From NCBI GenBank assembly GCA_003136915.1, contig PLEB01000415.1, positions 1-16,150 on the forward strand: 16,150 nt of DNA, given 5' to 3'. The notes beneath the pieces were generated by a model. The model was not told where the DNA came from and made no database searches. It saw only the letters and a list, made by a program, of their open reading frames with translations. Made by a program: the position numbers and the translations under genes. Below, piece after piece: positions 4,987 to 14,913 of the stretch. The DNA is from Chitinophagaceae bacterium (GTDB lineage Bacteria > Bacteroidota > Bacteroidia > Chitinophagales > Chitinophagaceae). Within the stretch, counting starts at the first letter, position 1. Each line of letters opens with the position of its first letter.

Positions 4987-5139
4987 GCATACTTTATTGA
5001 AGATATTGGAAAACGGGCGCTGGATATTCTGATGAATCAGATCAAAAACCCAAACGGTATAAAGGAGCATGTCATTATCGAGACCAGACTTATCGAGCGG
5101 AAAAGCAGTGTCCGACCGGTCATTAGGTCTGCCGGATGA
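4987..5139 (+). pseudogene. C-terminal remnant of a LacI-family transcriptional regulator
   Basis: About 50 codons, open from just after an in-frame TAA (4984-4986) to TGA at 5137-5139, read as the end of a LacI/PurR-type sugar-binding domain. IEDIGKRALDILMNQI matches the conserved 'e.G..A...Ll..i' helix, and EHVIIETRLIERKSS matches the family's closing strand 'ehv.l.t.LI.R.S'. The DNA-binding domain and most of the effector domain are absent from the bases upstream in any frame. There is no suitable start codon at its beginning, so it is a truncated relic. Its stop overlaps the ATG of the next gene as ATGA, suggesting the intact regulator was once the first, translationally coupled gene of this operon. 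Confidence 0.75.
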
Positions 5140-6434
5140 TTCATTCAGAAGCAATTCTTAACCGTAAAAAAAATACAAAGGATGTGCTTATTGAGAAAAT
5201 GCATTTCAGTCATTTTTATGTCTGGATTATGATAACCACCGGTTGCGCAGATCATCCTTCGGGAAGCGAAGAAAAAAAGGATTCTACTTTTGCCTCAGGA
5301 ACTTTCGGCTACGACCTTTCATTTCTGAAATCGCATGATGACGTGATTGTACTTTCAGATGATAAGGACCAGTCAAAACTGATCGTCTCCCCAAAATACC
5401 AGGCCAAGGTTTTTACTTCCACTGCTGGAGGTGACAGTGGTCAAAGTTTTGGCTGGATTAATTATAAGGCTTTTGCGGGAACGCCGAATACACATATGAA
5501 TGCCTATGGCGGCGAAAACCGGATCTGGCTGGGCCCTGAGGGAGGGAAGTATTCTTTATTTTTCACGAGGGGCAGCAAAATGGTTTTCGACAATTGGAAA
5601 ACGCCCGCTGCTTTTGATACGGAAGCCTGGAACGTGATTTCAAAAAGCAAGGGAAAGGTTAGCCTCCGGAAAGAAATGTCGCTTCAGAATTACGCCGGAA
5701 CAGATTTGCAACTGGTTGTGAACCGTTCTATTTCGCTGATCCCGCGCGGGCAGCTGTTTTCAATATTGGATCTCAGTCCGGATGATTCGGTGCAGGCGAT
5801 TGGATATGAAGCACAGAATACAATTACCAATTCAGGTAAATTTGACTGGAATGAAAAAACAGGTATGCCTTGTATCTGGATGCTGGATATGTTTAAGCCA
5901 TCTGAAAACACAGTCATCCTGATTCCTTACAAGAACGCATCTGATTCCGCATCAAAAATTGCTACGACAAATTATTTTGGAGAAATACCCCCTGCCAGAT
6001 TGAAGCATAGCCATGGGATCTTATTTTTTAGAGCGGATGGTAGAAACAGGGGTAAGCTCGGGTTGGATCCTGGTCGGGCCACCAGGTTTGCCGGCAGTTA
6101 TGATGAATCGCATCAGATACTAACAATTGCCTATTTTGACCTGGACGCATCGGCAAAATATCTTAACCAGGAATGGAGCACGGTCAAACCTTCTTTTTCA
6201 GGGGATGCAGTGAATGCTTATAACGATGGTCCGCTTGCGGACGGAACTCAGATGGGTCCATTTTATGAGATCGAAAGTGTGTCGCCCGCAGCATTCCTGA
6301 AACCGGGCGAATCCTTGTTGCACCGTCACAGCGTGTTCCATTTTACAGGTACGCAATCCGGATTAAATAAAATTACAGAAGCAGTTTTTCATATTTCCAT
6401 TGATCAGATCAATGCTGCTTTCCAGGGATTTTAG
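5136..6434 (+). CDS. DUF6786-like lipoprotein, first gene of the sugar operon
   Basis: A 432-residue predicted lipoprotein of unknown function, resembling the DUF6786 family found near Bacteroidota sugar-utilisation genes. A hydrophobic stretch (about residues 24-36) ends at Cys37 in the lipobox-like TTGC, so it should be lipid-anchored after cleavage. The rest is rich in strands with Gly/Trp/Asn turns and conserved-looking blocks such as GENRIWLGPEGG (about residues 125-136), reminiscent of the galactose-mutarotase-like beta-sandwich; no catalytic residues can be named. The start is uncertain. ATG at 5136 overlaps the LacI remnant's stop, while GTG at 5184 or ATG at 5199 would give a shorter, more usual signal peptide. 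The gene lies 26 bases ahead of the GH172 gene. The DUF number is given from memory. Confidence 0.72.
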   Translation: MIHSEAILNRKKNTKDVLIEKMHFSHFYVWIMITTGCADHPSGSEEKKDSTFASGTFGYDLSFLKSHDDVIVLSDDKDQSKLIVSPKYQAKVFTSTAGGDSGQSFGWINYKAFAGTPNTHMNAYGGENRIWLGPEGGKYSLFFTRGSKMVFDNWKTPAAFDTEAWNVISKSKGKVSLRKEMSLQNYAGTDLQLVVNRSISLIPRGQLFSILDLSPDDSVQAIGYEAQNTITNSGKFDWNEKTGMPCIWMLDMFKPSENTVILIPYKNASDSASKIATTNYFGEIPPARLKHSHGILFFRADGRNRGKLGLDPGRATRFAGSYDESHQILTIAYFDLDASAKYLNQEWSTVKPSFSGDAVNAYNDGPLADGTQMGPFYEIESVSPAAFLKPGESLLHRHSVFHFTGTQSGLNKITEAVFHISIDQINAAFQGF

Positions 6435-6460: not shown

Positions 6461-7627
6461 ATGAAAAAAAATATATTTGCCTGCCTGAGTATTAGCGTGG
6501 CTATCTCCGCATCAGTTTCCGGTCAGTCTAAATTTAACGGGATCGACGCGAACATGGGTAATATATTCCGGCTCTCGGATGCAAAAACAAGGTCAATCAG
6601 TCCTGAGAATTTCAATGGCGCCAAGGGAAAGGGCGGAATGGCAGCAGAAGGAACGGGTAAAGAAGCTGCACGTGACCTGGGCAAGGGATGGAAAATAAGT
6701 CCGTGTGTCGTGATCAAAGCCAAAACCACCTTTACCGTGGCGGAGATCGAAGGACCAGGTTCAATCCAGCATATTTGGATGACACCTACCGGCGTATGGC
6801 GAAATTCCATTCTCAGGTTTTACTGGGATGACGAAGCCTCACCCTCTGTTGAAGTACCCGTGGGTGATTTTTTCGGAATGGGCTGGGGTCAGTATTCGCC
6901 GCTGCAGTCGCTTGCGGTTTGTGTAAATCCGGGTAGTGCATTTAATTGTTATTGGCCGATGCCTTTTAAAAAGAAATGCCGGATCACGATGGAAAATATA
7001 GATGAAACGGAAATGGTTTTATATTACCAGGTGGATTATATTCTCACGGAGCTGCCTTCGGATGCTGCTTATTTTCATGCGCAATTCCGCAGAACAAATC
7101 CTTTGCCTTACAAGTCCGATTATACCCTGGTAGACGGAATCAGGGGACGCGGGCAGTATGTGGGCACATACATTGCGCTCGGCGTGCATGGTAATGGATG
7201 GTGGGGTGAAGGCGAGATCAAGTTTTTCATGGACGGGGATACGGATTATCCGACGATTTGCGGCACCGGCACGGAAGATTATTTCTGCGGCTCTTATGAT
7301 TTTGATACGAGGAAGAAAAATGCGGCAGGCGTGGAGGTTTCTGAATTCACTGAATTCAGCACGCCCTATTCCGGTCTGCACCAGGTAATTCGCGGAGACG
7401 GCCATTATGACGTATCGCAACGATTCGGCATGTATCGATGGCATATTAAAGATCCAATTCGTTTTGAAAAAGATCTTAAGGTAACTATTCAGGCATTGGG
7501 CTGGCGTTCCGGAGGACGTTACCTTCCGTTGCAAGATGATATTGCATCAACTGTATTCTGGTATCAGACCGAACCGCATAATCCCTTCCCGGCCTTGCCG
7601 GGCAAAGATGCGCTGGAAGTAAATTAG
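6461..7627 (+). CDS. Secreted DUF2961 / GH172 family glycoside hydrolase
   Basis: A 388-residue exported enzyme of family GH172 (formerly DUF2961). Residues 1-22 are a Sec signal peptide. The two jelly-roll domains of the family are recognisable from conserved blocks: GPGSIQHIWMTP (98-109), the VPVGDFFGMGWG segment (132-143), WWGEGEIKFFMDGD (247-260) and CGTGTEDYF (267-275). The Glu in GTGTEDYF (E272) and one in GEGEIKF (E250 or E252) are the likely catalytic pair, by analogy with the characterised enzymes. Known members are a difructose-dianhydride-forming/hydrolysing enzyme and D-arabinofuranosidases of gut Bacteroidota; they form oligomers through the jelly rolls. The neighbouring fucI fits release of D-arabinose, but substrate cannot be decided from sequence. 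ATG at 6461 gives the signal peptide directly. Confidence 0.9.
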   Translation: MKKNIFACLSISVAISASVSGQSKFNGIDANMGNIFRLSDAKTRSISPENFNGAKGKGGMAAEGTGKEAARDLGKGWKISPCVVIKAKTTFTVAEIEGPGSIQHIWMTPTGVWRNSILRFYWDDEASPSVEVPVGDFFGMGWGQYSPLQSLAVCVNPGSAFNCYWPMPFKKKCRITMENIDETEMVLYYQVDYILTELPSDAAYFHAQFRRTNPLPYKSDYTLVDGIRGRGQYVGTYIALGVHGNGWWGEGEIKFFMDGDTDYPTICGTGTEDYFCGSYDFDTRKKNAAGVEVSEFTEFSTPYSGLHQVIRGDGHYDVSQRFGMYRWHIKDPIRFEKDLKVTIQALGWRSGGRYLPLQDDIASTVFWYQTEPHNPFPALPGKDALEVN

Positions 7628-7689: not shown

Positions 7690-9462
7690 ATGCATCAGCA
7701 AACCGACTATCCCAAAATAGGCATCAGGCCGATAATCGATGGCCGCCTTGGAGGTGTCCGGGAATCCCTGGAACAAACCACTATGAAAATGGCGAATAAT
7801 GTAGCGGCCTTTTATGAGCGCATTTTAAAATATCCAGATGGAACCCGGGTGCAATGTGTAATTGCAGATTCCTGCATTGGTGGCGTTGCTGAAGCCGCAC
7901 GCTGCGCAAGGAAATTTGAAAATAACCAGGTGGGCGTTTCGCTTTCGGTAACTCCCTGTTGGTGTTACGGGAGTGAAACTATAGATATGGACCCTTTGTT
8001 ACCAAAAGCCATTTGGGGATTTAATGGAACCGAACGTCCGGGCGCAGTATATCTGGCGGCCGCTCTGGCGGCACATAATCAGATGGGTATTCCTGCTTTT
8101 GGTATTTACGGAAAAGACGTGCAGGACCTGGGAGATGAAAATATTCCTGAGGATGTTCAGGATCGCCTGCTCAGCTTTGCACGGGCAGGTCTTGCTGTCG
8201 CCATCATGCGCGGCAAATCCTACCTGGCCGTAGGCTCGGTTTGTATGGGCATTGCGGGATCCATGGTAAACCCGGATCTTTTCCGGGAATATTTTGGCAT
8301 GCGTAATGAATTCGTGGATTCCTCTGAAGTGCTGCGTAGGATTGAGAAAAAAATTTATGACGAAATGGAATTTGAGAAGGCCGTTGGCTGGGTAAAAAAT
8401 AATTGCAGGGAGGGCGAAGATTTTAATCTTCCGGCGAAACAATTTTCCCGTGAACAGAAAGATAAAGATTGGGATTTTGTAGTGAAGATGACCATGATCA
8501 TCCGGGATCTGATGACCGGCAATGAACGCTTGAAAGAAAAAGGTTTTGGAGAAGAAGCACAGGGTCACCATGCCCTGGTATCCGGATTTCAGGGTCAGAG
8601 ACAGTGGACAGATTTTTTGCCGAACGGGGATTTTGCTGAAGCCATGTTGAATTCTTCCTTCGATTGGAACGGGATTCGCGCACCGTATATGGTTGCCACG
8701 GAGAATGATTCACTCAACGGTATGAGCATGTTGTTTAATTATCTACTCACCCATACGGCCCAGATTTTCGCAGATGTAAGAACATATTGGAGCCCGGAGG
8801 CTGTGAACAGAGTTTCCGGATGGAAACCGGATGGCGCGGCAGCGAATGGATTTATTCATCTGATCAATTCAGGTGCCTGCACACTGGACGGAACCGGCAG
8901 ACAAAGCAAGAATGGTAAACCTGCCATGAAACCATATTGGGAGATCACACCTGAAGAAGCAAGTGAATGTCTTCAGGCGACCGTTTGGCACCCGGCCGCC
9001 AATGGATATTTCCGCGGGGGCGGATACTCATCCAAGTTTGTAACCGGGGCCGGGATGCCGGTAACCATGTGCCGGTTAAATCTGGTAAGAGGTATCGGGC
9101 CCGTTTTGCAGATTGTAGAAGGAGAAACAATCGCGCTGCCAGAAAAAGTCCATAAGATATTGGATGAAAGAACTGATAGAACCTGGCCCACAACCTGGTT
9201 CGTTCCGCGGCTGACGGACAGAGGTTATTTTAAAGATGTATATTCTGTAATGGCGAATTGGGGAGCAAATCATGGAGCGATCAGCTACGGCCATATCGGC
9301 CGCGATCTGATTTCGATGGCATCCATTCTCCGGATACCAGTTTGCATGCACAATGTTTCCGAGAAAAACATTTTCCGGCCCTCGGCATGGACTGCTTTCG
9401 GATCTGAACAGGAGGGCGCTGATTATCGCGCCTGTGCTGCTTATGGACCTCTTTATGGATGA
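7690..9462 (+). CDS. fucI: L-fucose isomerase (also D-arabinose isomerase)
   Basis: Cytoplasmic Mn2+-dependent aldose-ketose isomerase that converts L-fucose to L-fuculose; the E. coli enzyme also converts D-arabinose to D-ribulose. The 590 residues equal the usual length and the sequence is collinear with E. coli FucI. Blocks seen: the [19 protein letters not shown] start (residues 10-28), [10 protein letters not shown] (299-308), [10 protein letters not shown] (335-344), [12 protein letters not shown] (360-371), YFRGGGYSS (440-448), MANWGANHG (521-529) and the RPSAW...YGPLY end. Metal ligands are present: E338, D362 and H528, matching E337, D361 and H528 of E. coli. It sits 62 bases after GH172 and 24 before the symporter. 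Neither fuculokinase nor the aldolase is in the window, so the rest of the pathway must lie elsewhere. Confidence 0.97.
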
Positions 9463-9486: not shown

Positions 9487-10857
9487 ATGAATTTGAGAAA
9501 TGGAAATAAGGTCCAGGGCCTTCTCAGGGCCGCTGACGGATCCAGTTACCTGCGGCCTTTTATCATGATCACCAGCCTGTTCCTGCTCTGGGGTTTTGCG
9601 CATGGATTGCTGGATGTACTGGACAAACATTTTCAGAATACACTGCATGTATCCAAAGCGGAATCTGGCTTCGTCCAGTTTTCACTTTATATCGGCTATC
9701 TCGTTATGGCATATCCTGCAGGTTTGTTTATGAAGCGCTATGGATATAAAAAGGGAATCATATTGGGTTTGTCATTATTTGCCCTGGGCGCATTCTTATT
9801 TTTTCCCGCGGTAAAACTGGATTTAATTATTCATGCAAAGCTGGCCCTATTTGTTTCGTTCCTGATTGCCCTGTTTATTATCGCCTGCGGACTGGCCTGC
9901 CTGGAAACGGCGGCAAATCCATATACAACTGTTCTTGGTCCTTCGCGCGGCGCAGCCAGGCGAATAAATATCGCGCAATCATTCAACGGACTGGGATGGA
10001 TACTCGGACCACTAATGGGCGGTTTCTTTATTTTCGGAGCCGAACAAACCGGAAATGCAGATAAGTTTGATTCCCTGCTCAAACCTTATATGCTGGTTGG
10101 CAGTATTGTTGTGTTTGTTGCGATCATATTTGCTTTTACGCGACTGCCTGCTATCCAGGAAGAAAATGTGGAAGGTATAGAAGCAGATGCACCAACCCGG
10201 GAATTATTAAAACATCCATCATTCGTGCTGGCCGTGATCGCCCAGTTTCTTTATGTTGCCGCTCAAACAGGTGTTAATTCATTTTTCATTAACTACGTAA
10301 CGGAAACACTATCGGGCGTGCGGGCTACTATCGCAGGGATGATGGAGCACCTGGGATATTTCGGGCAAGTATTCATGCCCAAGAATGCAGAACAGGCGGC
10401 CTCGCTTATCCTCGCGTTGGGAGGTATGGGATGCTTCTGGATTGGCCGGTTGTTTGGCGCATACCTGATGAAGTTCGTGCGGCCCCAGCGCTTGCTTGCT
10501 GTGTATGCAGTAATAAATGTTTGTCTCACCGCCATCGTGGTGATGCGACTGGGATGGATAAGCGTCATTGCGCTGTTCTCTACCTACTTTTTTATGTCGC
10601 TTATGTTTCCGACAATTTTTGCATTGGGCCTCCGGAATCTCGGCCCGCTCACAAAGAAGGCAGCTTCTTTCCTGGTCATGGCTGTAGCGGGGGGCGCCTT
10701 TTGCCCGCCATTGATGGGCGCCGTCGGAGATCATTTTGGAATGTCCGTAGCCTTTATTATTCCACTGTGTTGCTTTGTCTTTATTGCATATTATGCTATG
10801 TCAAGAAAAAAAACATTAGATGAAAATGTGAATCAACCGGTTTTGAATCATCATTAA
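9487..10857 (+). CDS. fucP: FHS-type sugar:H+ symporter, FucP-like
   Basis: A 456-residue, 12-helix major facilitator of the fucose-galactose-glucose:H+ symporter family in the inner membrane. Family marks are the first helix with LLWGFAHGLLDVLDKHFQ (residues 33-50) and CLETAANPYTTVLGP in helix 4 (138-152). Asp46 and Glu140 correspond to the substrate/proton residues D46 and E135 of E. coli FucP; position 43 is Asp here instead of Asn. E. coli FucP carries L-fucose, L-galactose and D-arabinose, so the sugar here need not be fucose. A stretch of about 60 residues between helices 6 and 8 contains a charged loop (EENVEGIEADAP), which is usual. It lies between fucI and GH116 in the operon, and its stop TAA is followed directly by the ATG of the next gene. 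Confidence 0.92.
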   Translation: MNLRNGNKVQGLLRAADGSSYLRPFIMITSLFLLWGFAHGLLDVLDKHFQNTLHVSKAESGFVQFSLYIGYLVMAYPAGLFMKRYGYKKGIILGLSLFALGAFLFFPAVKLDLIIHAKLALFVSFLIALFIIACGLACLETAANPYTTVLGPSRGAARRINIAQSFNGLGWILGPLMGGFFIFGAEQTGNADKFDSLLKPYMLVGSIVVFVAIIFAFTRLPAIQEENVEGIEADAPTRELLKHPSFVLAVIAQFLYVAAQTGVNSFFINYVTETLSGVRATIAGMMEHLGYFGQVFMPKNAEQAASLILALGGMGCFWIGRLFGAYLMKFVRPQRLLAVYAVINVCLTAIVVMRLGWISVIALFSTYFFMSLMFPTIFALGLRNLGPLTKKAASFLVMAVAGGAFCPPLMGAVGDHFGMSVAFIIPLCCFVFIAYYAMSRKKTLDENVNQPVLNHH

Positions 10858-13506
10858 ATGCATTTGCACATGAAGGACCATCAAAAACGCAGGGCTTTCA
10901 TAAAGACCCTCGCCCTCGGAGGAATAGGTGCGACAGCACCGATCCATTTGTTGCGTGCAGGAGAATCGGAACAGGCCGCACAAAAATTCGATGATACCGG
11001 AAATATTGCGCCCGGCCCTGAAAGAAAATTCAATGGTGACTATAAGGGCGATTATCTTAACCGACTGGCATTTCCCATTGGCGGCCTCGGCGCCGGGATG
11101 TTTTGTCTGGAAGGCACCGGTGCCATATCTCATATGAGCGTGGTAAACAAGCCCGGTATTTTTAATGAGCCTGCGATGTTTGCTGCTATCTGCGTAAAGG
11201 GATTAAAAAATGGCGCTAAGGTACTGGAGGGACAGGCACCGGAATGGAAATATTTTGGGCGGCGCGGAAGTGGAAACGGTCTCGAGGGTTCTACGCTGGG
11301 CCTTCCGCGTTTTAAAACTGCAGAATGCAATATTCGATTTCCTTACAGCACTATCCGTTTGAGTGATCTTGAATTGCCGCTCCAGGTGCAGATCACCGGA
11401 TGGAGTCCTTTTATCCCGACGGATGAAGATAATTCCGGACTGCCTGCAGGCGCGCTTGAATATCGGTTCGTAAATAAAGGAAAAGAAAAGCTTGACCTGG
11501 TATTTTCTTATAATTCAAAAAATTTTCTTGCCGTTGAGGGAAATACCCTAAATACTATCGAGGCATTTCCCCTCGGCTTCATACTAACCCAGCAAGGCAC
11601 AAAAGAAAAACCGAATGCTGAAGCAGGTTTTGCCATTTTTACCAACGAGGATAGTACAGTAGTTGATCATTGCTGGTTCCGCGGAGGTTGGTGGGATCCA
11701 TTGACTATGGCATGGAATAATATCCGCGAAGGACGCGCCCAGGCTGTTGCTGCCGTTGCGAAAGACGCCGGCGGCGCTTCTCTTTTTGTTCCTTTTTCCT
11801 TAGCTCCGGGATCTTCAAAATCTATCCGGGTAATGATGGCTTGGTATGTACCTGAAACGGATCTGCATATCGGAATGCGTGTGCCTGAAGAAAAGAAAGA
11901 CTGCAATCCGGAAACAGGATGTTGTGCGGGGCCATCCGACCTTGGAGTGGCCAACGGGAAGCAAAATCCTTCTCCAAATTATAAACCCTGGTATAGCAGC
12001 AAATTCAATGATGTAAGGGAAGTGGCTGACTATTGGAATAAAAATTATGCAGACCTGAACAAAAAATCAACTCTTTTTAAAGAAGCATTTTATTCCAGCA
12101 CCTTGCCTTCAGAAGTATTGGAAGCAGTTGCGGCAAATCTGACAATTTTAAAATCTCCAACTGTTCTCAGACAGTACGATGGTCGTCTATGGAGTTGGGA
12201 GGGATGTGGTGACGATGAGGGATGTTGTCACGGGTCCTGCACGCATGTTTGGAACTATGCACAGGCTATTCCGCATTTATTTCCGTCACTGGAAAAAACC
12301 CTGCGTAATACAGAATTTTGTGAGAACCAAAATCACGCGGGTCATCAGGGATTTCGTGCGAATTTGCCGATCAGCCCGTTGAAACATGATTTTCACGCGG
12401 CGGCTGACGGACAATTGGGAGGAATCATGAAAGTATACCGCGAATGGCGAATCAGTGGAGATAATAGCTGGCTGGGTAGAATTTATCCCATGGTTTGTGT
12501 GAGCATGGATTATAGCATCAATACCTGGGATCCAAAACACAGGGGTGTAATTGAAGAGCCGCACCACAATACATACGACATAGAATTCTGGGGACCCGAT
12601 GGCATGTGCTGCAGTTTTTACCTTGGTGCACTTACGGCGATCATCAGGATGGGAAACTATCTGAAGAAGGATGTTCGTAAATATCAGGAATTATATGAAA
12701 AGGGCAGAAACTACCTGGAAACTCAGTTATATAATGGAGAATATTTCTTCCAGGATATCGAATATAAAAACCTGAATGCTCCTGATCCGTCTACAGCGCT
12801 ATCTTTTGGCGGAGATTATTCTCCGGAAGCAAGGGAAATATTAAAAAAAGAAGGACCAAAATATCAATATGGCAACGGTTGTTTGAGCGATGGTATATTG
12901 GGCGCCTGGATCGGCAGCATGTGCGGACTGGATTCTTTTATTGACCCTCTAAAAATCAAAAGTCATTTACTCGCCGTACACAAATACAATCTGAAAAAAA
13001 ATCTTATAGACCATGCGAATCCGCAGCGGCCCGATTTTGCCCTGGGCAAAGAAGGTGGCCTCCTGCTCTGTACCTGGCCAAAGGGTGGCAAGCTCTCACT
13101 GCCTTTTGTTTATAGTGATGAGGTATGGACAGGTATTGAATACCAGGTGGCTTCTCATTTGATCCTTACAGGCAGTGTGCAGGCAGGGTTAGAGATTGTT
13201 CGTACCTGCAGGGAGCGGTACGACGGAAGGATCCGGAACCCGTTCAATGAATACGAGTGCGGTCATTGGTATGCCCGGGCCATGTCCAGCTACGGACTCT
13301 TGCATGCGCTTACTGGTCTCCGTTATGATGCCGTTGATAAAATATTGTATCTGGATTCCCGAATTGGGGATTTTACCTGTTTTATTTCAACTGCCACGGG
13401 TTTCGGAACAGTGGGCATAAGCAAAGGAAAGCCTTCGCTTAAAGTTTTTTATGGAAATATTCCATTGAATAAGATGATCGTGAACGGAAAAGAACTGAGT
13501 ATATGA
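10858..13506 (+). CDS. Tat-exported GH116-type glycosidase (DUF608 / GBA2-like)
   Basis: An 882-residue enzyme related to GH116 (acid beta-glucosidase/beta-xylosidase, human GBA2). Residues 10-16 (KRRAFIK) with the hydrophobic stretch behind them form a twin-arginine signal. The N-terminal beta-sandwich starts near LAFPIGGLGAG (70-80); the catalytic (alpha/alpha)6 barrel begins around residue 420. Likely nucleophile is E448 (LWSWEGCG), acid/base D574 (HNTYDIEFWG), and the sugar-binding E798/R807 pair lies in EYECGHWYARA. These are assigned by analogy with TxGH116 (E441, D593, E777, R786). Unusual are cysteine clusters: C349/C355/C356, C450/C456/C457/C461 right behind the nucleophile, and C584/C585 close to the acid/base. 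Start may be 10858 (abutting fucP's stop) or ATG 10870. The stop overlaps the FKBP start as ATGA. Confidence 0.88.
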   Translation: MHLHMKDHQKRRAFIKTLALGGIGATAPIHLLRAGESEQAAQKFDDTGNIAPGPERKFNGDYKGDYLNRLAFPIGGLGAGMFCLEGTGAISHMSVVNKPGIFNEPAMFAAICVKGLKNGAKVLEGQAPEWKYFGRRGSGNGLEGSTLGLPRFKTAECNIRFPYSTIRLSDLELPLQVQITGWSPFIPTDEDNSGLPAGALEYRFVNKGKEKLDLVFSYNSKNFLAVEGNTLNTIEAFPLGFILTQQGTKEKPNAEAGFAIFTNEDSTVVDHCWFRGGWWDPLTMAWNNIREGRAQAVAAVAKDAGGASLFVPFSLAPGSSKSIRVMMAWYVPETDLHIGMRVPEEKKDCNPETGCCAGPSDLGVANGKQNPSPNYKPWYSSKFNDVREVADYWNKNYADLNKKSTLFKEAFYSSTLPSEVLEAVAANLTILKSPTVLRQYDGRLWSWEGCGDDEGCCHGSCTHVWNYAQAIPHLFPSLEKTLRNTEFCENQNHAGHQGFRANLPISPLKHDFHAAADGQLGGIMKVYREWRISGDNSWLGRIYPMVCVSMDYSINTWDPKHRGVIEEPHHNTYDIEFWGPDGMCCSFYLGALTAIIRMGNYLKKDVRKYQELYEKGRNYLETQLYNGEYFFQDIEYKNLNAPDPSTALSFGGDYSPEAREILKKEGPKYQYGNGCLSDGILGAWIGSMCGLDSFIDPLKIKSHLLAVHKYNLKKNLIDHANPQRPDFALGKEGGLLLCTWPKGGKLSLPFVYSDEVWTGIEYQVASHLILTGSVQAGLEIVRTCRERYDGRIRNPFNEYECGHWYARAMSSYGLLHALTGLRYDAVDKILYLDSRIGDFTCFISTATGFGTVGISKGKPSLKVFYGNIPLNKMIVNGKELSI

Positions 13507-13841
13507 TGCAGGTAGAGAAAGATGCAGTGGTAATCATCCGGTATATCATGAAAAACAGCCGCGGCGACCTGTTGGAAAATACCATGGAGGGCCCTCCGGC
13601 CAGCTATGTTCATGGAAGTTCCGGAATATTAAAGACCCTGCAGAGCCAGCTGGAAGGATTAAGGATCGGAGAAAGTAAACAAATATTCTTATCCCGGCAG
13701 GATGATTCAGCAGGAGATGATTTCATATTTGACGTTCTGATTGAAAATATAAGGGCCGGATTGCCGCAGGAGATTAAGCTCGGATATCCGCTTAATACGG
13801 TTCCGGTAGAATGTGCGCCCGGTTGTATTTGTTACTATTAA
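13503..13841 (+). CDS. Minimal SlyD-like FKBP-type prolyl isomerase with Cys-rich tail
   Basis: A 112-residue cytoplasmic protein resembling the FKBP half of SlyD. VVIIRYIMKNSRGDLLENT (9-27), SYVHGSSGILKTLQSQLEGLRIGES (34-58) and the closing strand FIFDVLIENIRAG (74-86) match the usual 'V.l.Y.l...G...d', 'y.hG...ll..le..LeGl..Ge' and 'f.v.v..ir' pattern. The insert-in-flap chaperone domain of SlyD is absent or extremely short. The last residues contain C104, C108 and C110 (CAPGCIC), a possible metal-binding tail standing in for the His/Cys tail of SlyD. No signal peptide. The ATG overlaps the GH116 stop by four bases and the COG0523 gene starts four bases after its stop, so translation of the three is probably coupled. 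Role in folding or metal delivery to GH116 is inference. Confidence 0.75.
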   Translation: MMQVEKDAVVIIRYIMKNSRGDLLENTMEGPPASYVHGSSGILKTLQSQLEGLRIGESKQIFLSRQDDSAGDDFIFDVLIENIRAGLPQEIKLGYPLNTVPVECAPGCICYY

Positions 13842-13845
13842 AATA

Positions 13846-14913
13846 ATGCTGATGAAAATTCATCTCCTGGGTGGTTTTTTAGGAAGCGGAAAAACAACTG
13901 CCATACAATCCGCGATCCGGGTTCTGGGGGACCAGGGTGTTAAATGCGGCGTCATAACGAATGACCAGGGAATCAGACTGGTGGACGCTGATCTTTTTAA
14001 GCAAATGGGCGTGCCCGGGAGGCAGGTAACAAATGGATGCTTTTGTTGTAACTATCAGGATCTGGAAAGTCAGATTCAGTCACTCATAGAAACTGAGCAA
14101 CCCGAAATTATTTTTGCAGAATCCGTAGGCTCATGTACAGATATTGTTGCAACGGTACTGAAACCCTTGCGCCGGTTCAGACCTGACGTGCGTACAACTT
14201 TATCTGTATTTGCAGATGGATTGTTATTACACATGTTATTGGTAGACGGCGCTGAGTTGTTTGAAGATCCTGTCAGGTACCTCTATTTCAAACAACTTGA
14301 AGAGGCTCGTATGCTTATCATTAATAAAGTGGATTTATTAAATCCCGGTCAACTCGGGGATCTCAAAAAAGTGCTTGAGGAAAAGTATGGGAACAGCTTA
14401 GTACAATTTCAGAATTCCCAAGATAAGGACAGTATCGGGAGATGGCTGCAACAACTGGATAAGATTCCTTCCTTGTTGATTCCCGAGTCTCTTGAGATTG
14501 ACTACGATATATATGGAGCGGGGGAAGCAAAACTGGCCTGGCTTGACCAGGAAATGGAAATAGAAAGTGAATCCGGAGGAGCAAACCTTGGCGCTGTTGA
14601 TTTGATTCGTGGCATATTTCATAAGGTGACTGCGTGTAAATATGCCATCGGTCACCTGAAATTTTTGCTCAACGGTAAGAACAAAATCAGTTTCACTGCA
14701 AGTTCTCCCCGCTCATTCAGCATTAAAATCCATCCGGCTGTTTCCGCGACCTTATTATTGAATGCCAGGGTGCAAACGGAACCAGAAACGCTTTTACAAC
14801 TGATATCGGAATCTGTGCGGGAAGAAGAAGAACGGTCAAAAATCAGTATCCGGATAAGAAGTACCTCTGCATTTCGGCCAGGTTATCCTATCCCGGCCCA
14901 TCGTATCGGATAA
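13846..14913 (+). CDS. COG0523 (CobW/G3E) family GTPase, putative metal chaperone
   Basis: A 355-residue G3E-family P-loop GTPase. Walker A is GGFLGSGKTT (residues 9-18), the metal-binding GCxCC motif is GCFCC (64-68; C65, C67, C68), the Walker B/switch II region reads FAESVGSCTD, and NKVD is at 160-163. COG0523 proteins deliver Zn, Co, Fe or other metals to client enzymes, using GTP hydrolysis. The C-terminal part (about 225-355) does not show the usual CobW_C core with its SF.Y..RPFHP-like motif. Instead it has AWLDQEMEIESESG and AIGHLKFLLNG, so it may be a distinct subgroup with its own client. ATG at 13846 is preferred; ATG at 13852 is equally possible, and a GTG upstream would overlap the FKBP gene. 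It is the last gene of the operon. Confidence 0.85.
   Translation: MLMKIHLLGGFLGSGKTTAIQSAIRVLGDQGVKCGVITNDQGIRLVDADLFKQMGVPGRQVTNGCFCCNYQDLESQIQSLIETEQPEIIFAESVGSCTDIVATVLKPLRRFRPDVRTTLSVFADGLLLHMLLVDGAELFEDPVRYLYFKQLEEARMLIINKVDLLNPGQLGDLKKVLEEKYGNSLVQFQNSQDKDSIGRWLQQLDKIPSLLIPESLEIDYDIYGAGEAKLAWLDQEMEIESESGGANLGAVDLIRGIFHKVTACKYAIGHLKFLLNGKNKISFTASSPRSFSIKIHPAVSATLLLNARVQTEPETLLQLISESVREEEERSKISIRIRSTSAFRPGYPIPAHRIG

Follow-up and report, generated by a model that had tools for sequence, protein, structure and literature searches.

What would a glycosidase need from a prolyl isomerase and a GTPase of a metal-chaperone family? The question is raised by a 16,150-nucleotide stretch of DNA from a Chitinophagaceae bacterium (contig PLEB01000415.1; hereafter the window), in which a gene for a GH116 glycosidase is followed by genes for an FKBP and a COG0523/G3E GTPase (Table 1). 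In the initial annotation, these were read as a possible maturation module, with the FKBP and the GTPase folding and metallating the GH116 enzyme in the cytoplasm before its export through the Tat pathway.

The GH116 enzyme and its locus

The described layout, a GH116 gene with a KRRAFIK leader followed by the FKBP and GTPase genes, is real and requires only small start-codon corrections. The TGA stop of GH116 (13504-13506) and the ATG of the FKBP (13503) share the sequence ATGA, giving a 4-base overlap that is reduced to 1 base if the FKBP begins at the second Met of MMQV. The ATG of the GTPase at 13846 sits 4 bases past the FKBP stop; this gap may be 10 bases, with the start at ATG 13852, because relatives align from that Met onward. 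The GH116 gene itself may start at ATG 10870, since relatives (e.g. L006) begin at a Met matching its fifth residue. The genome from which the window derives is 80% complete; a search of it for DUF4185 (GH183) gave no match, but neither did its control.

Table 1 Features of the window, with the evidence or conservation recorded for each
Feature	Position	Strand	Evidence or conservation
DUF6786 protein, first gene of likely operon	5136..6434	+	
DUF2961 protein, GH172 exo-α-D-arabinofuranosidase homologue (ExoMA1, 8ic8)	6461..7627	+	E 1.7e-128
L-fucose isomerase FucI	7690..9462	+	
FucP-type sugar:H+ symporter	9487..10857	+	
GH116 glycosidase, 882 aa, ExoMA2-like (GH116 subfamily 4, PMC10509167)	10858..13506	+	ORF, Pfam, nearest structure
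Twin arginines of Tat leader (KRRAFIK)	10888..10893	+	Sequence pattern
N-domain loop cysteines C349, C355, C356 (CNPETGCC)	11902..11925	+	Clade A only
Glu448, equivalent to ExoMA2 catalytic nucleophile Glu431	12199..12201	+	147/147 aligned relatives
Cys450, common in clade A, no determinant	12205..12207	+	
Cys456-Cys457 doublet; C456 separates partner-bearing from partner-free GH116	12223..12228	+	
Cys461, third thiol of CC-x3-C site	12238..12240	+	147/147
His463, equivalent to ExoMA2 His446, substrate binding	12244..12246	+	146/147 aligned relatives
Cys488, tracks doublet in clade A only	12319..12321	+	
Arg500, equivalent to ExoMA2 Arg483, substrate binding	12355..12357	+	147/147 aligned relatives
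Asp574, equivalent to ExoMA2 acid/base Asp557	12577..12579	+	147/147 aligned relatives
Short SlyD-type FKBP, 112 aa, no room for insert-in-flap chaperone domain	13503..13841	+	
C-terminal CxxxCxC tail of FKBP (C104, C108, C110)	13812..13832	+	
COG0523/G3E GTPase, 355 aa	13846..14913	+	
CxCC motif (GCFCC) of GTPase	14038..14049	+	Invariant in 18/18 aligned

Pfam searches identified DUF608 (2.8e-55) and Glyco_hydr_116N (8e-37) domains in the GH116 protein. Its nearest solved relative is ExoMA2 (E 2.6e-106; 4e-190 with a profile), an exo-β-D-arabinofuranosidase of GH116 subfamily 4 (PDB 8IC6/8IC7, PMC10509167). The window enzyme keeps all four ExoMA2-type active-site residues (Glu, His, Arg and Asp), where residue numbers of the chain and of the paper differ by 4, a shift derived by hand. 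As far as the sections of that paper covered here describe it, the ExoMA2 gene is likewise clustered with genes for a GH172 enzyme and a putative isomerase, whereas ExoMA2 differs from the window protein in having Ser at the C456 position (its two Cys there are 440 and 444 in our numbering) and no signal sequence. The same sections describe no metal or metal partner for ExoMA2; in the main text, 'zinc', 'Zn2+' and 'calcium' are absent, and 'metal' occurs for column purification only (PMC10509167). The operon looks like one for D-arabinan use, in which FucI is probably a D-arabinose isomerase, and the GH172/FucI context suggests that the GH116 protein is probably an exo-β-D-arabinofuranosidase.

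Partner genes accompany GH116 enzymes carrying Cys456

GH116 relatives are numerous, with 7678 counted in a broad search. In a first set of neighbourhoods (80 of 459 GH116 relatives), the commonest neighbour clusters were the FKBP (32 loci) and the GTPase (26), followed by DUF2961 (24). Profile searches lifted the FKBP to 35/80 loci, with the GTPase at 26/80, which overturned an earlier impression of FKBP rarity drawn from 4 matches among 7 candidates. Both cysteine clusters noted initially, C349/355/356 and C450/456/457/461, are present in the window enzyme, the C456-C457 doublet lying eight residues past the catalytic Glu. With an FKBP counted as adjacent up to 2.6 kb from the GH116 frame and a GTPase up to 2.0 kb, one or both partners were found, among 153 distinct relatives, beside 68 of the 100 doublet enzymes and beside none of the 53 with Ser or Ala at position 456. 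The same split was observed in clade A (58/89 versus 0/22) and in the distant clade C (10/11 versus 0/12). One of 154 rows, L091, had been dropped because it duplicates the L196 gene. The adjacency rule was originally 2.6 kb for both partners, and the GTPase limit was reduced after locus L077 had been seen; under the original rule, 1/53 non-doublet enzymes had a partner, namely the second GH116 copy of L077, 2570 bases from the GTPase, with a doublet-type GH116 sitting between the two.

Of all the cysteines, C456 alone follows the partner groups in both clades. The N-domain loop C349/C355/C356 is absent from clade C, L039 and L046, all of which still have partners, and the last two loci led us to reject the whole clusters as the determinant. 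C450 was rejected as well: L077 lacks it and keeps its partners, while L067, L157 and others combine C450 with an SC pair and have no partner. The expectation that GH116 proteins without the cysteine clusters lack the partners thus holds for C456 (0/53 loci, 0/28 genomes) but not for the clusters as a whole. The association is also conserved in related genomes, so that both checks open to computation favour the initial reading. The gene order is not fixed: GH116-FKBP-GTPase, found in 14/100 doublet loci (window not counted), is one of several arrangements. A single partner was present in many doublet loci (FKBP only in 25, GTPase only in 22 of the 100).

The association extends to whole genomes. 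In 394 genomes of the family, a sample of a larger number, the GTPase subfamily was found in 33 of 49 doublet genomes, 0/28 with non-doublet GH116 only and 0/314 without GH116, and is therefore confined to doublet genomes (33/33). The corresponding counts for the short FKBP were 21/49, 0/28 and 1/314. G495, G574 and G795 hold GH116 fragments with undefined doublet state; as at most 2, 12 and 5 candidates were scored per genome in the three family searches, single absences may be misses. The GTPase was also located elsewhere in 13 of 48 genomes whose GH116 had no adjacent GTPase, all 13 of them doublet genomes; this search covered 49 of the 54 GTPase-less loci and left out L018. The subfamily is not a general one: at E 1e-40 it was found in none of 315 genomes from elsewhere in the class, where GH116 is likewise rare (7/396 genomes). 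There appears to be no strict need for the partners, because 32/100 doublet enzymes have none adjacent (only 5 of these end <1 kb from a contig end) and Segetibacter koreensis (99% complete, doublet GH116) has neither gene. Of the 49 doublet genomes in the family sample, 8 had neither the GTPase nor the short FKBP, S. koreensis being one of them.

Partner proteins and the export leader

Searched alone, the window FKBP gave no Pfam match and weak SlyD matches. A profile of 29 FKBP sequences, 15 of which contain Pfam FKBP_C (the window's own not among them), matched E. coli SlyD at 4.7e-16. The SlyD matches stop at profile position 68, and only SlyD-FKBP1A chimeras, which we take to be without the insert-in-flap domain, match positions 1-96. 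The SlyD-type assignment made initially is therefore retained for the FKBP domain, but the insert-in-flap chaperone domain was not found in the window protein (112 aa), which is thus without the part by which SlyD binds Tat signals. For E. coli SlyD itself, both binding to Tat signal peptides and a role in nickel supply are described in the portion of PMC11198818 covered here.

A putative metal-binding Cys tail (C-x3-C or C-x4-CC) ends the FKBP in 46/49 distinct relatives, a count that excludes the window's own protein, the long SlyD proteins of seven loci (L087-L090, L092-L094) and matches scoring <60 bits. In L039 and L046, FKBP and GTPase form a single ORF, and these fusions have no Cys tail. 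Longer SlyD proteins (~165 aa) are found beside the clade C doublet GH116 of L194, L196 and L201, with the tails CGPEGCC, CSGEPGCC and CGPAGCC. The long SlyD of genus g222 was rejected as a module member, as it is also present in G568, G682, G753 and G802, four genomes of that genus that gave no GH116 match.

The GTPase contains a cobW domain (PF02492, 1.3e-25), and its CxCC motif, P-loop and N-K-x-D can be read in the window sequence, placing it in COG0523. Among the named equivalogs searched (CobW, ZigA, CobW_rel_Se), the best score was 54.9 bits versus an NCBIfam curated cut-off of 180.

The N-terminal leader of the window GH116 is MHLHMKDHQKRRAFIKTLALGG. With its twin arginines and a TatC in the same genome (6.9e-61), the enzyme is a predicted Tat substrate. 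A pattern search recognised a Tat-like leader in all 66 full-length partner-bearing GH116 relatives; the leader is also carried by 30/34 clade A and C enzymes without C456, and so it does not track the doublet and was rejected as the partner determinant.

A proposed metal-loading module and its alternatives

We consider it likely, with some doubt remaining, that the three genes act together to mature one enzyme, and that the GTPase and the Cys-tailed FKBP load a metal into a Cys3 site of GH116 before Tat export. The enzyme would keep the standard catalytic Glu and Asp and add a three-thiol site, C456-C457-x3-C461, which in the sequence comes after the nucleophile Glu448 and ahead of the substrate-binding His463. 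The CxCC motif of the GTPase would pick up a metal ion, most likely zinc, although iron or cobalt would also be possible. The CxxxCxC tail of the small FKBP would help the GTPase with the metal, the GTPase would pass it to the Cys3 site in the cytoplasm, and the folded holo-enzyme would then leave via Tat. The gene linkage behind this scheme is strong. Against metal loading, ExoMA2 has the SC form yet is active; the many loci with a single partner, the missing Tat-binding domain of the window FKBP and the Tat leaders of non-doublet enzymes also count against the scheme.

Parts of this scheme have precedents. In nickel delivery to [NiFe]-hydrogenase by SlyD and HypB, a metal-tailed FKBP works with a G3E GTPase, a pairing like the one seen here; SlyD handles nickel, serves many clients and has its own chaperone domain, a part absent from the window FKBP. 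Nitrile hydratase holds its metal in a cluster of three Cys; it is cytoplasmic, and we know of no FKBP or Tat export associated with it. The metal of the Fe-type enzyme is iron, as opposed to zinc as the most likely metal of GH116. Its COG0523 activator, Nha3, is dedicated to one enzyme, as we propose for the GTPase here; in the covered part of the same review, zinc homeostasis and the maturation of nitrile hydratase are among the roles given for COG0523, and gene-cluster studies are said possibly to allow the clients of COG0523 GTPases to be predicted (PMC9164220). A literature search returned no paper linking GH116 with COG0523 among the matches listed.

A zinc-cysteine glycosidase site is known from a separate family, the GH127/GH146 β-L-arabinofuranosidases HypBA1 and BtGH146, where zinc is bound in the active site of the catalytic domain by three cysteines and a glutamate, C417 and C418 of HypBA1 being adjacent. 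Zinc and a Cys nucleophile have been shown there and are only proposed for GH116; the covered part of the source describes no chaperone genes for GH127/146, unlike the situation in the window (PMC10728902). Pfam, structure and profile searches with the window GH116 matched GH116 families only, with no homology to GH127/146. It is possible, though doubtful, that doublet GH116 enzymes are zinc-thiolate glycosidases, with a pocket metal on C456/C457/C461 (perhaps with Glu448) and possibly a Cys nucleophile. They would then represent a second, independent invention of the GH127/146 chemistry, and would be the first glycosidases served by a GTPase-FKBP pair of their own for metal insertion, toggled in evolution by one residue.

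The partners might instead handle thiols and no metal, the Cys-tailed FKBP folding or protecting an oxidation- or disulfide-prone CC pair and the GTPase acting as a regulator or chaperone. The additional clade A cysteines (349, 355, 356, 450 and 488) could form disulfides in an exported protein, and a quarter of the doublet loci have the FKBP but no GTPase next to GH116. We nevertheless regard this as unlikely, given that the GTPase subfamily, with its invariant CxCC, is by itself restricted to doublet genomes, that it also occurs without an adjacent FKBP, and that C456 alone among the cysteines follows the partners in both clades. Quite unlikely, too, is a purely structural metal site served by a metal-scarcity device that is dispensable in metal-replete cells. 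The many partner-free doublet enzymes, S. koreensis among them, would fit such a device, as would a COG0523 subgroup tied to zinc limitation (PMC2770081, in the part covered), but the thiol site falls in sequence between nucleophile and substrate-binding His, and, in the tally of neighbour clusters at 80 loci, the other commonest neighbours are sugar-operon genes.

Two further explanations are contradicted by the distribution of the genes. FucI, an Mn enzyme, had been named as the alternative client, and it shares the gene run with GH172 and DUF6786 in the window and some relatives, which would make GH116 a mere operon neighbour. Yet, counted within a few kb either side of GH116 and hence as lower bounds, FucI accompanied only 7/58 partner-bearing enzymes in clade A and 0/10 in clade C, GH172 9/58 and 2/10, and DUF6786 13/58 and 3/10; all three also occur with the 22 partner-free non-doublet enzymes of clade A (3, 6 and 8, respectively). 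This co-occurrence disfavours each of them as the client, and we find it very improbable that the partners serve FucI or another sugar-operon enzyme. Shared ancestry alone, with doublet and partners as joint markers of the same lineages and no biochemical link between them, is barely credible. On a tree of the window enzyme and the 147 GH116 relatives that reach 780 aa, the doublet changes only 7 times, and an independent-pairs test (starred branches) yielded 5 pairs with a median p of 0.25, being underpowered. The partner state, however, changes ~24 times with 67/67 partner-bearing tips on a doublet background, a Pagel-type test of doublet versus partner gave LR 25.3 (p 4e-5), none of 1335 and none of 353 retained simulations left every non-doublet tip partner-free, and the dependence is the same in clades A and C.

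Under the favoured metal-loading module, a single client and a single residue, C456, are predicted for this COG0523 subfamily, and sister GH116 enzymes that lack both C456 and the partners are natural controls. If it is correct, one operon would link a SlyD-like FKBP with a Cys tail, a GTPase of the G3E type and an enzyme exported by Tat, and doublet GH116 expressed alone may be inactive. Glycosidases would then join the enzymes with dedicated metal-insertion machinery, and hidden metalloglycosidases would be recognisable from sequence.

Gene arrangement at GH116 loci

The GH116, FKBP-like and COG0523 GTPase genes form the end of one same-strand gene run. As the initial annotation had read it, the FKBP-like gene starts inside the end of the GH116 gene. 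Upstream of them lie genes for DUF6786 and DUF2961 proteins, FucI and a FucP-type symporter.

Genes of the run with their positions in the window
Feature	Position	Strand	Remarks
DUF6786 protein	5136-6434		same-strand gene run, upstream of GH116
GH116 gene	10858-13506	+	carries both GH116 Pfam domains
FKBP-like gene	13503-13841	same as GH116	112-residue product
COG0523 GTPase gene	13846-14913	same as GH116	cobW domain

In the neighbourhoods of 80 GH116 loci, all from named genomes and chosen as the 80 best among 459 relatives, the commonest neighbour clusters were the FKBP and the GTPase, present in 35 and 26 of the fetched stretches, respectively. Orders and orientations of these partners varied among loci whose GH116 carries the cysteine doublet C456-C457 (window numbering), eight residues past the catalytic Glu448. 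Among 100 such enzymes, the window left out, 14 showed the order GH116-FKBP-GTPase, 5 the order GH116-GTPase-FKBP and 2 a fused FKBP-GTPase, while 25 had an FKBP without adjacent GTPase, 22 a GTPase without adjacent FKBP and 32 no adjacent partner. The proposed conservation of the triplet thus holds as a recurrent association, but not as an exact gene order. The fusions are single ORFs of similar length from two separate assemblies (loci L039:3713-5023 and L046:8484-9779) and lack the Cys tail. The genome of locus L043 has an FKBP beside a GTPase, away from the fetched GH116 locus.

Several loci showed further features. At L012, L018, L047, L077, L119 and L121, the Tat-type doublet GH116 adjoins a second GH116 paralogue with the motif EGVGSCVGTC, about 1040 aa long where complete and without a Tat-like leader. 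At L115, a same-strand GTPase (L115:16665-17738) stands at the 5' end of a gene run, about 9 kb from GH116, in the order GTPase-DUF2961-regulator-DUF6786-FucI-FucP-kinase-GH116, the genes being named by likeness to the window or by eye. At L028 and L029, the FKBP and GTPase are separated by one gene that we take, judging by eye, to be aquaporin-like; the downstream gene is presumably altronate-dehydratase-like, again judged by eye. The GH116 of L167 (genome G502) and the GTPases of L032 and L130 are each split over two frames, through decay or assembly error.

Cysteine 456 and the presence of partners

The closest solved relative of the window GH116 is the exo-beta-D-arabinofuranosidase ExoMA2 (E 2.6e-106; profile 4e-190). 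By alignment, E448 and H463 correspond to its nucleophile Glu431 and to His446 (excerpt of PMC10509167), with an offset of four between chain and paper numbering that was derived by hand. The intervening motif is EGC-x5-CC-x3-C-TH. Its C457 and C461 are kept in all 147 GH116 relatives; at position 456, 94 of these have Cys and the other 53 have Ser or Ala (non-doublet). Defining adjacency, by rules of our own, as an FKBP within 2.6 kb or a GTPase within 2.0 kb, we found an adjacent partner for 68 of 100 enzymes with C456 and for 0 of 53 without it. The GTPase limit had been tightened from 2.6 to 2.0 kb after the data were seen; at 2.6 kb for both partners, the second count becomes 1 of 53, the exception being the second GH116 of L077, which lies behind a doublet-type GH116.

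The same division was seen within groups of relatives. In clade A, which holds the window-like enzymes, partners adjoin 58 of 89 doublet and 0 of 22 non-doublet GH116; in the distant clade C (26-35% identity to the window protein), they adjoin 10 of 11 and 0 of 12, and the sole unpartnered doublet, at L186, ends 43 bases before the contig end. Clades B and X are all non-doublet and unpartnered (0/19), and 17 of the 19 have no Tat-like leader. Column 456 was the sole alignment column that fully separated both groups in clades A and C. Because the groups had been drawn by this very column, the result shows no more than the lack of any other single residue change that divides them as cleanly in both clades. 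Judged from these alignments, C456 would be the residue that decides partner presence, for a sampling within Bacteroidota and mostly from one family. The initial annotation had expected GH116 proteins without the cysteine clusters to lack the partners; this was borne out for the key cysteine, but not for the clusters as a whole.

Kinship was taken into account with a FastTree phylogeny (148 rows, motif columns left out), on which the doublet needed 7 changes and partner presence 24. A Pagel-type test with bounded rates favoured dependence (LR 25.3, 4 df, p 4e-5). When partners were simulated to evolve independently of the doublet (3000 runs under each of two rate models), all 53 non-doublet tips were partner-free in 0 of 1335 and 0 of 353 of the runs retained, those whose partner count differed from the observed count by no more than 20. 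An independent-pairs test, with only 5 usable pairs, was not significant (median p 0.25).

Distribution of the partners across genomes

One set of 394 family genomes was searched three times, with the best 2, 12 and 5 candidates per genome scored, so that single absences may be misses. GH116 was found in 80 genomes, of which 49 had the doublet, 28 had non-doublet types only among those read and 3 had unreadable fragments. At E 1e-60 or better, 33 genomes have the GTPase subfamily, all of them among the 49 with the doublet (0/28 non-doublet-only, 0/3 fragment, 0/314 without GH116). The short FKBP was present in 22, namely 21 of the 49, 0/28, 0/3 and 1/314. The zeros among the 28 agree with the expectation of the initial annotation. 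Fisher tests of doublet versus non-doublet genomes, uncorrected for kinship, gave 7.7e-10 for the GTPase and 1.1e-5 for the short FKBP. The single short FKBP in a genome without a GH116 match lies at L207 (G817:C18:1-8000), and no GH116 was found in the 8 kb around it.

Eight doublet genomes had neither the GTPase subfamily nor the short FKBP. In two of them (G584, G693), GH116 adjoins a longer SlyD whose tail reads CGPxGCC, and in three (G722, G779, G823) a long Cys-tailed SlyD lies elsewhere; in G663 the GH116 runs off the contig, and in G557, 69% complete, it is a 561-aa frame within the contig. Searches of the doublet genome G666, taken as Segetibacter koreensis, found neither partner. In the 80-locus set, 48 genomes without a GTPase adjoining GH116 were searched genome-wide: 13, all doublet, have a strong match elsewhere, and the 11 non-doublet genomes among the 48 gave either no match or only weak ones (E 1e-16 to 1e-11), which were to COG0523 proteins of other kinds.

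The window GTPase reached none of the NCBIfam cut-offs. Its subfamily is well bounded, since among 316 class genomes the window's own alone reached E 1e-40 or better; the 20 other class genomes listed had 3 to 17 GTPase candidates each at first look. GH116 is likewise rare in the class (7/396 genomes). Five proteins of 543-545 aa (P0174, P0185, P0213, P0215, P0223; P0185 is named Segetibacter sp.) combine the GTPase domain with a listed LUD-domain match, C-terminal in P0174 (2.5e-5). At L209, L210 and L212, GH116-linked GTPase copies occur in fetched stretches from which GH116 is absent, and these genomes also have a doublet GH116.

The window FKBP on its own matched no Pfam family and matched SlyD weakly; a 29-sequence profile matched E. 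coli SlyD at 4.7e-16, and 15 of its 29 members matched FKBP_C. The window protein is too short for the insert-in-flap chaperone domain. The FKBP relatives finish with a cysteine tail, for example CAPGCICYY or CGPGCCC. Among 49 distinct ones, 46 have the pattern C-x3-C or C-x4-CC; the other three are the two GTPase fusions and one with C-x5-CC.

Predicted export, proposed metal supply and proposed role of the operon

A Tat-like leader was found on all 66 full-length partner-bearing GH116, and TatC is present in the window's genome, in line with the Tat type first assigned. The proposed client would thus always be of the folded-export type, its export being predicted. Of the 34 non-doublet enzymes in clades A and C, 30 carry such a leader as well; therefore export does not need the partners. 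FucI, named earlier as the alternative client, is disfavoured along with GH172 and DUF6786, as the presence of none of them tracks that of the partners in the fetched stretches.

Three-thiol motifs occur in the FKBP tail, in the CxCC of the GTPase (18 of 18 aligned members) and in the CC-x3-C of GH116. Because each protein carries one, and the genes share an operon or two of them are fused, the motifs suggest that FKBP, GTPase and GH116 may relay a thiophilic metal. COG0523 proteins have known roles in zinc homeostasis, in the biosynthesis of cobalamin and in maturing nitrile hydratase (PMC9164220). SlyD is a source of nickel and also binds Tat signals (PMC11198818), the binding being by a domain that the window FKBP lacks. 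GH127/146 arabinofuranosidases coordinate zinc through three Cys, one of them the nucleophile, together with a Glu (PMC10728902), so such an enzyme can carry zinc in this way. In our judgement, zinc is the most likely metal of the putative relay. In GH116 it may be either catalytic or structural, since both the doublet and the non-doublet type retain Glu448 and Asp574, and ExoMA2, which has Ser at the position of C456, is active (PMC10509167).

The DUF6786 protein, whose gene lies near GH116 in 18 of 80 loci and for which we found no credible solved relative, is a candidate new enzyme of D-arabinan use. The window DUF2961 product resembles the GH172 exo-alpha-D-arabinofuranosidase ExoMA1 (E 1.7e-128), and a predicted fucose isomerase is the most abundant carbohydrate-active enzyme of D-arabinan-grown Dysgonomonas gadei (excerpt of PMC10115798). 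Together with the likeness of GH116 to ExoMA2, the operon therefore looks to be directed at D-arabinose-containing glycans.
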